From the NCBI GenBank assembly GCA_014323865.1, contig JACONG010000016.1, forward strand, positions 608,523 to 672,522: DNA of 64,000 nt, written 5' to 3'. This DNA comes from Rhodospirillales bacterium. Its GTDB lineage: Bacteria > Pseudomonadota > Alphaproteobacteria > SP197. Both the position numbers and the translations under genes were made by a program. A model generated the notes under the pieces. The model saw nothing but the letters and a program-made list of their open reading frames with translations, made no database searches and was not told where the DNA came from. Shown one piece after another: positions 6,432 to 14,780 of this stretch; the first letter of the stretch is position 1; each line of letters begins with the position of its first letter.

Positions 6432-8153
<1,722 letters not shown>

Positions 8154-8161
8154 TTAACTGC

Positions 8162-8186
8162 GACCGGCGCTCTCGGCGCTGCGGTC
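8162..8186 (-). promoter_or_regulatory. Hairpin just upstream of the leuA ribosome site
   Basis: In the leuA transcript this segment folds as GACCG, CA bulge, GCGC, CGAGA loop, GCGC, CGGTC: a nine-pair stem ending 20 nt before the leuA ATG. Its 5' half can instead pair with the element at 8386-8395 (GGCGCCGGTC), giving mutually exclusive structures. It lacks a U-tract, so any control would act on translation or through another terminator rather than as a plain terminator. Confidence 0.45.
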
Positions 8187-8408
8187 TTCCAAATTCACTT
8201 GTTCACGGACGCAAGGCTCGTCTCCGGCAGCTCGCGTCCCTCGCCGTACGCGAAGGGAGATAGTCGCAGGCCACAGCGGAAGGGCTCGCAGCGAGAAAAC
8301 GCGCTCACGGCAAACACATCGGTGAAGGGCTGGAAGATCGAAGACATCGGGACTGGCTGGCTGGTGACAAGGCAAACGGCAATGGGACCGGCGCCTCGCG
8401 TGCGCCGA

Positions 8409-8453
8409 TCAGATAAGCAGTAGGCCTAGAGCCAAGGTATGCATCTTGATCAT
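8409..8453 (-). CDS. Candidate leucine-rich leader peptide of leuA
   Basis: This 14-residue ORF reads MIKMHTLALGLLLI and stops with TGA. Five of its 14 codons are leucine (TTG, CTA, CTA, CTG, CTT), two of them the usually rare CTA, and a terminal Ile is present. It sits about 270 nt ahead of leuA on the same strand and begins about where the promoter at 8461-8489 should start transcription, so it may be leaderless, as known for the Sinorhizobium trp leader peptide. The codon content and place fit amino-acid attenuation. Such a short ORF could be chance. Confidence 0.5.
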   Translation of the reverse strand: MIKMHTLALGLLLI

Positions 8454-8460
8454 GGACGAG

Positions 8461-8489
8461 GAAATAGGCGGGATGGGTCAGGGAGTCAA
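8461..8489 (-). promoter_or_regulatory. Putative sigma-70-type promoter for leader-leuA
   Basis: On the minus strand TTGACT (8489-8484) and TATTTC (8466-8461) are separated by exactly 17 bp. The predicted start falls at or within a few bases of the leader peptide ATG at 8453. The -35 box lies at the edge of a lower-GC foreign-looking segment (8487-8660). Confidence 0.55.
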
Positions 8490-8660
8490 GTTACAAGCAT
8501 TACGACCAGAACGCTGCGACTTGACTCCAAAAGACGAGGACTCCACTTCAAGTTCCAGTCTGGCATTTCAATAACTGCAGGCGTGAAAGGATTGGGTAAG
8601 ACGACCCTAATCAACATTATGTTGCGGTTACTTGCCGACCCTTTCGAGTTACCTGGAAGT
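8487..8660 (+). pseudogene. Fragment of an AAA/SMC-like ATPase N-terminus
   Basis: About 57 codons encode a P-loop segment including ITAGVKGLGKTTLINIMLRLL, close to the N-terminus of large SMC-like ATPases that carry the motif GVNGLGKTTL. There is no convincing start, and the reading frame runs straight into the antisense of a truncated lipoprotein, so this is a scrap. Its base composition is clearly lower in GC than its neighbours, which suggests transfer. The full-length family and its role cannot be named from this piece. Confidence 0.5.
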
Positions 8661-12876: not shown

Positions 12877-14655
12877 TCAGCCCGCTGCCAGCTGCCGGAC
12901 CATGTCGTCTTCGTCGATGCCGGCGACGACGACGGGCTTCTTCATGGCATCGCGGCGGAAGGGCTCGCCGAGTTCCTGGTTGAGCACGACCTCGATGAAG
13001 GTGGTGACGCCCTGCTTCTGGGCCTCGCAGCTTTCCTTCAGCGCCGCGGTGAGTTCGTCCTGTGTCGTCGCCTGCACGCCCTTGAGACCGCAGCCCTCCG
13101 CCACCTTGGCGTAGGAGAGGTTCGGATTAAGCTCGGTGCCGACGAAGTTGTTGTCGTACCACAGCGTCGTGTTGCGCTTCTCTGCGCCCCACTGGTAGTT
13201 GCGGAAGATCACCATGGTGATGGCAGGCCAGCCCTCGCGGCCGCAGGCGGTCATCTCGTTCATCGAGATGCCGAAGGCGCCGTCGCCGGCGAAACCGACC
13301 ACGGGCACGTCCGGGCAGCCGATCTTGGCACCCAGGATCGAGGGGAAGCCATAGCCACAGGGACCGAACAGGCCCGGCGCCAGATACTTCCTGCCTTCCT
13401 CGAAGGTCGGGTAGGCGTTGCCGATCGCACAGTTGTTCCCGATGTCGCTGGAGATGATCGCATCGCCCGGCAGACCGGCCTGAATCGCGCGCCAGGCCAT
13501 GCGGGCGGACATGTGCTCGGGCTCGCGCGACCGCACGTCGGCGTTCCACGAGGTGCCGGGATCGTCGTCCTCGTGGTCCATGCTGGAGAGCTCCTGCAGC
13601 CAGGCCGACTTGGTCTGGTGGATCGTCGCCCTGCGTTCCTCGCGCCCGGTGTCGCCGGCCGTTGCCGAAAGCTGGGACAGGATCTGTCGCGCCACCTTGC
13701 CGGCGTCGCCGCAGATGCCGACCGTGACCTTCTTGGTCAGACCGATACGGTCTGGGTTCATGTCGACCTGGATGATTGCCGCTTCCTTCGGCCAGTAGTC
13801 GATGCCGTAGCCCGGAAGCGTGGAGAACGGGTTGAGGCGCGTGCCGAGCGCGAGCACGACATCGGCTTTGGCGATCAGCTCCATCGCCGCCTTCGAGCCG
13901 TTGTAGCCCAGCGGCCCGGCGGCCAGCGGATGAGAGCCGGGGAAGCTGTCGTTATGCTGATAGCCCGAGCAGACCGGCGCATCGAGTCGCTCGGCCAGCG
14001 TTTGGCAATCGGGGATCGCGCCGCCGATCACGACGCCCGCGCCCGACAGGATGACCGGGAACCTGGCACCGGACAGGAGCGCGGCGGCTTGGGCGATCGC
14101 GTCCTCGCCGCCGCCTTGGCGTTCCAGGCCGATCGACTGCGGCAACTCGATATCGACCTGCTGGGTCCAGATGTCGCGCGGGATGTTGATCTGGGCGGGT
14201 GCCGAGCGGCGCTGGGCCTGTTCGATCACGCGGTTCAACACCTCGGCGATGCGCGTGGCGTCACGCACCTCCTCCTGGTAGCAGACCATGTCCTTGAACA
14301 GCGCCATCTGCTCGACCTCCTGGAAGCCGCCCTGGCCGATCGTCTTGTTGGCCGCCTGCGGGGTGACCAGCAGCATGGGCGTGTGGTTCCAGTAGGCGGT
14401 TTTGACCGGGGTTACGACGTTGGTGATGCCCGGCCCGTTCTGGCCGATCACCATGCCGATCTGGCCGGTGGCGCGGGTCAGGCCGTCGCACATGAAGCCG
14501 GCGTTGCCTTCGTGCGCGACATCCCAGAAGGTGATGCCCGCCTTGGGGAAGAGATTGGAGATCGGCATGAAGGCCGAGCCGATGATGCCGAAGCAGTGTT
14601 CGATGCCGTGCTTCTGCAGAACCTTCACGAAAGCTTCTTCGGTCGTCATCTTCAT
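12877..14655 (-). CDS. xsc: Sulfoacetaldehyde acetyltransferase
   Basis: Xsc is a thiamine-diphosphate enzyme that converts sulfoacetaldehyde and phosphate to sulfite and acetyl phosphate, the desulfonation step of taurine breakdown. The ATG at 14655 gives 592 residues, the expected size, and begins MKMTTEEAFVKVLQ as in the family. Visible features are the N-terminal ThDP catalytic region with HEGNAGFMCDG, GQNGPGITN, and the C-terminal ThDP/Mg region with GDGAFGISMNE and N-YQWGAEK. An AGGGA site lies 9 nt upstream. It follows the MocR-type regulator gene on the same strand, and tpa lies divergently beyond it. Confidence 0.93.
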   Translation of the reverse strand: MKMTTEEAFVKVLQKHGIEHCFGIIGSAFMPISNLFPKAGITFWDVAHEGNAGFMCDGLTRATGQIGMVIGQNGPGITNVVTPVKTAYWNHTPMLLVTPQAANKTIGQGGFQEVEQMALFKDMVCYQEEVRDATRIAEVLNRVIEQAQRRSAPAQINIPRDIWTQQVDIELPQSIGLERQGGGEDAIAQAAALLSGARFPVILSGAGVVIGGAIPDCQTLAERLDAPVCSGYQHNDSFPGSHPLAAGPLGYNGSKAAMELIAKADVVLALGTRLNPFSTLPGYGIDYWPKEAAIIQVDMNPDRIGLTKKVTVGICGDAGKVARQILSQLSATAGDTGREERRATIHQTKSAWLQELSSMDHEDDDPGTSWNADVRSREPEHMSARMAWRAIQAGLPGDAIISSDIGNNCAIGNAYPTFEEGRKYLAPGLFGPCGYGFPSILGAKIGCPDVPVVGFAGDGAFGISMNEMTACGREGWPAITMVIFRNYQWGAEKRNTTLWYDNNFVGTELNPNLSYAKVAEGCGLKGVQATTQDELTAALKESCEAQKQGVTTFIEVVLNQELGEPFRRDAMKKPVVVAGIDEDDMVRQLAAG

Positions 14656-14729
14656 GGTCGTCGTTTCCCTGTCGGTCTGTTGCGGGCGGACGTCCCCCGA
14701 CCATCGTGGCGTGATCCTACGGCTGCGCT

Positions 14730-14750
14730 GTGACACCAGCTTAGTGCCAG
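14730..14750 (-). promoter_or_regulatory. Tandem CTGG repeats upstream of xsc, possible TauR site
   Basis: On the minus strand CTGGCACTAA (14750-14741) is followed directly by CTGGTGTCAC (14739-14730), giving two CTGG half-sites 11 bp apart about 80 bp before the xsc start. Rhodobacter TauR is reported to bind CTGGAC(C/T)TAA-type direct repeats. The resemblance is partial, and a role in xsc control is inference. Confidence 0.3.
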
Positions 14751-14780
14751 TTGATCTCAAGACTTCGAGCCAGAGTCGGC

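Follow-up and report, generated by a model that had tools for sequence, protein, structure and literature searches.

We interpret the region upstream of leuA in the window (the whole 64,000-nucleotide stretch of DNA analyzed here) as a leucine-sensing leader that would act by ribosome position, that is, by attenuation, and that ancestrally had two sensors in tandem. From comparison of related sequences, we assign this reading a probability of roughly three in four. The promoter, two short open reading frames (ORF1 and ORF2), their frames, their Leu codons and the hairpins that accompany them were all evident in that comparison (Table 1). The evidence that we regard as decisive in placing the leader beyond chance is the conservation of its DNA within the genus, together with the recurrence of the same layout of promoter, ORF and hairpin across the class. 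Because most species lack a U-tract and the alternative hairpin T1 is without class-wide support, we describe the leader as attenuator-like and the termination step as a proposal.

Table 1. Features of the leuA leader in the window.
Feature	Position	Strand	Basis
-35 box, TTGACT	8489..8484	minus	Sequence; TTGAC(A/T) at the same place, with 17-nt spacing, in all close relatives
-10 box, TATTTC	8466..8461	minus	Sequence; 17-nt spacer from the -35 box
ORF1, leader peptide MIKMHTLALGLLLI followed by a stop	8453..8409	minus	Sequence; counterparts in relatives
Hairpin A1	8410..8386	minus	Folding and family alignment; the 5' half begins inside the ORF1 stop codon
Candidate alternative hairpin T1	8396..8370	minus	Inference; AGGC..CGG with CCG..GCCT, reusing the 3' arm of A1
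ORF2, second leader ORF, MSSIFQPFTDVFAVSAFSRCEPFRCGLRLSPFAYGEGRELPETSLASVNK	8347..8195	minus	In-frame equivalents in relatives
Leu-Arg-Leu control-codon motif of ORF2, CTGCGACTA	8269..8261	minus	Sequence; CGACT invariant in the element-2 alignment
Hairpin that follows the Leu codons of ORF2; A2 counterpart, diverged	8257..8238	minus	Sequence only
Last hairpin upstream of the leuA ribosome site	8186..8162	minus	Nine pairs, 2-nt bulge
SD-like site of leuA, AAGGAAGAG	8155..8147	minus	Sequence
leuA, 2-isopropylmalate synthase, proposed regulated gene	8141..6432	minus	Pfam HMGL-like, IPMS_D2, LeuA_dimer

The ATG of ORF1 lies 7 nt past the end of the -10 box and has no ribosome site, and based on this spacing we predict that the ORF1 transcript is leaderless. 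Five of the 14 codons specify Leu (TTG, CTA, CTA, CTG, and CTT), two of them being the rare codon CTA; at the local Leu frequency, the probability of at least five Leu residues in 13 codons is about 0.005. Of the ORF1 residues, 28% are Leu, and 60% of the ORF1 Leu codons are CTT or CTA, compared with 7% in nine window genes. The 17 bp-spaced promoter, the 14-codon ORF and its five Leu codons are all present in the sequence as reported in a preliminary description of this region. A generic promoter and terminator scan made no call in the leader, since TATTTC ends in C and a U-tract is absent, and a search of Rfam produced no credible match there, with Leu_leader and all other families falling below the gathering cut-off. 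We consider that ORF1 very probably senses leucine supply. Adjoining the -35 box on the plus strand is an open stretch (8490-8660) that is like a P-loop fragment (..FQSGISITAGVKGLGKTTLINIML..); its only Pfam match is a sub-threshold P-loop one (RsgA_GTPase, 14.7 bits), and the stretch looks like the debris of an inserted gene. Elsewhere in the window, a minus-strand gene (12877-14760) encodes a TPP-dependent enzyme with all three TPP domains (Pfam), the product of which resembles, by eye, a sulfoacetaldehyde acetyltransferase-like acetolactate synthase homolog.

The DNA between 8490 and 8307 is conserved at 68-73% in several genomes of the same genus, and equivalents of ORF1 were found in all 13 leuA leaders of the window's family that could be read at that point. 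Each of these leaders has TTGAC(A/T) and, mostly 17 nt further on, a -10 box; the ATG follows after about 7 nt, and the 14 codons, in which Leu codons hold constant positions, end in a stop and an immediate GC hairpin. The preliminary description had proposed checking relatives for conservation of the peptide and its Leu codons; both proved to be conserved, as all 11 distinct family peptides have the same length of 14 residues, with Leu9 and Leu11 invariant. Searches with LeuA among relatives, the family and the class, extended into the flanking DNA, provided 122 leuA upstream regions, of which 121 were usable. A promoter-linked, Leu-rich ORF with an ATG start was present in 73 of these 121 regions; dinucleotide shuffles gave 0-1 and the reverse strand gave none. 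Promoter statistics were compiled from 59 curated ORF1 leaders, 57 of which have a -35/-10 pair (with a 17-nt spacer in 44), and an SD-like site precedes ORF1 in none of the 59. In 44 of the 57 promoter-bearing leaders the gap from the -10 box to the ATG is 6-7 nt, which shows the predicted leaderless initiation to be a conserved design, presumably maintained by selection in this regulatory class. These comparative data lend good support to the earlier proposal that a Leu-rich leader peptide, leaderless and transcribed from a promoter of its own, would sense leucine on behalf of leuA.

The ORF1 stop codon either adjoins the GC hairpin A1 or sits in its loop, the stop triplet being within the loop in 26 of 45 leaders. 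In the window this local hairpin, previously placed at 8406-8390, was confirmed with the limits given in Table 1. In the family alignment (nine members), 94% of the pairs in the A1 helix are kept, compared with 26-54% in slid controls, and covariation is small, a single pair having both of its bases changed. An alignment of element 1 yielded no consensus pairs because the loop lengths vary, and A1 was therefore judged by the family alignment and by folding; the region around the ORF1 stop folds as a hairpin in nearly all of 59 leaders (mean z -1.6). Taken as a whole, the leader does not exceed its shuffles in stability (z -0.07). The z value of T1 is -1.0 in the window and -1.6 to -2.6 in three sister genomes. 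As a general terminator T1 was rejected, its class-wide mean z being -0.1; we regard it as a weak terminator-like candidate, and as the best candidate for the read-out in the window's family.

The preliminary description missed ORF2 and its Leu-Arg-Leu codons. In the window, ORF2 encodes 50 amino acids and begins 61 nt past the ORF1 stop. Such a second in-frame ORF (element 2) is present in 45 leaders, with its ATG about 65 nt (usually 50-75) after the ORF1 stop; it typically ends in Leu-Arg-Leu-x-Gly-Gly-Arg-Arg-like codons within a hairpin, A2, and its Leu codon is mostly 4-10 nt ahead of A2. In 41 of the 45 leaders, the frame that holds CGA-CTT (Arg-Leu) can be read without a stop from an ATG 15 or more codons upstream, while the other two frames are open in only 1 and 7 of the 45, respectively. 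The distance from the ATG to the CGA is exactly 27 codons in the window and in three other genomes (G005, G002, and G009). The amino-acid sequence of ORF2 is not conserved across relatives, and this free drift fits a leader peptide, with the open frame as the one positive sign of translation. The A2 helix itself is well conserved: in a 25-sequence alignment 88.9% of its cells are paired, compared with 27-60% when slid, 10 of its 13 pairs have changed on both sides, covarying across genera, and RNAalifold independently gives the same helix. CGACTT also turns up in element 1 as well as in element 2 across genera, and the preference for CGA, a rare Arg codon, is strong, exceeding what the Leu codons need; this suggests either a duplication that relates elements 1 and 2 or a role for the slow codon.

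A covariance model of element 2 (R1) was searched in 277 genomes, and its 30 best matches were all upstream of leuA. Other target genes for element 2 were considered and rejected, the weak matches in two genomes (G268 and G222) sitting among unrelated ORFs. The model also matches rhizobial leuA leaders (Agrobacterium vitis, Sinorhizobium, Chelativorans, Mesorhizobium, and others), and since a model trained on other lineages recognizes them, we conclude from sequence similarity that the rhizobial leader is homologous to element 2. Rhizobia have element 2 alone, those Reyranella leaders that were read have element 1 alone, and many Rhodospirillales-like lineages have both. In five of the rhizobial leaders (L076, L077, L079, L093, and L105) we saw, by eye, a possible second, two-tier hairpin, with GAGGAGC..GCTCCTC outside and an inner GC helix, which shares its 3' arm with the leader-stop hairpin.

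In the window, the element-2 model has no match at 8270-8200 and a canonical A2 was not found there; four family members (L022, L016, L019, and L020) have weak matches. Because the model fails in the window, the second stage appears to be diverged or decaying in this genus, with ORF2 kept and element 1 intact. No recognizable element 2 was found in the same-genus genomes G001, G003, G006, and G007. These belong to a second clade of the genus (leaders L024-L027) in which the leuA leader is short, and the small ORF that follows A1 (MSTEHSSGRC..) has a TGA overlapping the leuA ATG (TGATG), an overlap that suggests translational coupling to leuA.

From these features we infer that the leader ORFs are translated, that ribosomes stall on them, and in which direction and at which level (transcription) control would act. 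In the mechanism we propose, transcription would start at the ORF1 AUG, and a ribosome would engage the nascent RNA at its 5' end, with no Shine-Dalgarno site involved. With ample leucyl-tRNA the ribosome would quickly pass the rare CTA/CTT codons to reach the stop, covering the 5' arm of A1, and with scarce leucyl-tRNA it would stall a few codons before the stop. The position of the ribosome would thereby set which hairpin forms behind RNA polymerase and what share of transcripts reaches leuA, the stalling caused by scarcity altering the stop-codon hairpin so that more transcripts reach the gene. In the window's family, a switch between A1, as antiterminator, and T1, as terminator-like hairpin, with one arm in common, is plausible. 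In most of the related leaders the sensor is repeated, as ORF2, with its second Leu-Arg-Leu stretch, runs into A2, and a leader with both elements would present two leucine checkpoints in series.

An intrinsic terminator with a U-tract was not found before leuA in the window. The missing U-tract, which the preliminary description had noted for the final hairpin, does not set this leader apart; in our class sample a U-tract after A1 or A2 is missing in most species, making its absence general. No class-wide alternative partner for the arms of A1 or A2 was supported either: alternative pairings of the A1 3' arm gave p 0.9998 across the class. Pairings of the Leu codons with the region after A2 gave p 0.90 (ORF1) and 0.07 (ORF2), with none conserved. 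The classical 2:3 pairing, here the A1 3' arm with the A2 5' arm, was rejected (p 0.85), and so was an AAGTCG segment that could pair with the Leu codons, which did not reach significance. The positive-control comparisons for A1 and A2 are circular, their arms having been chosen from folds, and were excluded as evidence. Separately, the 3' arms of A1 and A2 are more complementary to each other within than between genomes (45 leaders; p 0.0024, 11 cross-comparisons).

The lack of support for class-wide alternative pairings would fit an explanation in which transcription stops or pauses at A1 and A2 directly (possibly with help from Rho or NusA) and a ribosome stalled on the adjacent Leu codons would block their folding, with alternative structures unneeded. 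Consistent with this are the short distance between the ORF2 Leu codon and A2, the frequent placement of the stop codon in the A1 loop, and the U-rich tails present in single genomes (G304 and G022 after A1, G030 after A2). However, a U-tract is lacking in most members, and the hairpin would be melted just as well by a ribosome that waits at the stop; we consider this explanation possible but somewhat doubtful.

Compared with attenuation by ribosome position, translational control, in which the leader would alter access to the leuA ribosome site via the last hairpin, as proposed for the actinobacterial LEU element, seems unlikely to us. The nine-pair hairpin that the preliminary description had recorded just before the ribosome site is present, and most family members have some hairpin there, 13-37 nt upstream of leuA, with differing sequences; this recurrence and the absence of a U-tract would be in keeping with translational control. 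However, the last hairpin ends before the SD, leaving it free, and the distance from A2 to leuA varies widely in other lineages. The pairing of 8395-8386 with the 5' arm of the last hairpin, put forward previously as an alternative to the first hairpin, is possible in the window (-12.6 kcal/mol), but only in this genome: in nine family members, matched arms gave -8.0 kcal/mol and mismatched arms -7.7 kcal/mol, so the competing-hairpin scheme is not conserved. With the SD uncovered and a link to the leader hairpin absent, the earlier suggestion of translational control by the last hairpin is unsupported. That ORF1 is no sensor but what is left of a signal-peptide gene (MIKMHTLALGLLLI, stop, then SAHA) is scarcely credible. 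The hydrophobic run followed by S-A-H-A past the stop is signal-peptide-like, but every relative has the stop in place after 14 codons with the hairpin next to it, the layout recurs upstream of leuA in dozens of genera, and the family-wide conserved position of the stop refutes this reading.

Like the enterobacterial leu operon attenuator (leuL; Rfam Leu_leader), the leader studied here has rare Leu codons (CTA) clustered in a short ORF ahead of leuA and a hairpin where that ORF stops, and its sensing would likewise go by ribosome position. It differs in its leaderless start, its much shorter peptide, the absence of a clear U-tract terminator, the lack of an Rfam match and, in most relatives, the tandem arrangement with a further Leu ORF. 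Tandem attenuators are known from Salmonella mgtCBR, a Mg operon with two different leader ORFs that answer different signals, whereas the two ORFs of our leaders both have codons for leucine. In mgtCBR, too, a single long leader contains a pair of short ORFs (PMC3641672). The Sinorhizobium (S. meliloti) trpL attenuator (rnTrpL/peTrpL) is an alphaproteobacterial amino-acid attenuator with a 14-aa leader peptide and, as predicted for ORF1, is leaderless, its transcript starting at the AUG of the peptide (PMC10117765), but it senses tryptophan, not leucine, has a single sensor and differs in gene and sequence. The rhizobial leuA leader encodes an LLLLxLxRGCRV peptide with a hairpin around its stop, and differs in having a single sensor, a longer ORF and no element 1. 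The actinobacterial LEU element (Seliverstov et al., 2005, PMC1262725) likewise has a Leu-rich ORF upstream of leuA and lacks an obvious terminator. Its Leu codons, however, form a pseudoknot-type fold with the leuA SD, and a conserved pairing of that kind was not found in our leaders.

Single leader-peptide leucine attenuators are already known, as is a leaderless leader peptide (S. meliloti trpL, PMC10117765). Our literature search returned no description of tandem Leu leader ORFs before leuA, although an earlier report of single alphaproteobacterial leuA leaders is possible. We think it probable that in many alphaproteobacteria leuA is under two serial leucine-sensing ORFs, the first leaderless and the second internally initiated, an arrangement undescribed as far as we have searched, and that the window's lineage is losing the second stage. 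As Rfam is blind to both elements in the window, annotation pipelines likely miss them. Sensors of the same amino acid in series would offer a simple and testable way to obtain steep or two-level control, in which leaderless and internal initiation are separated within one transcript, and since natural lineages exist with element 1, with element 2 or with both, what each stage contributes can be tested directly.
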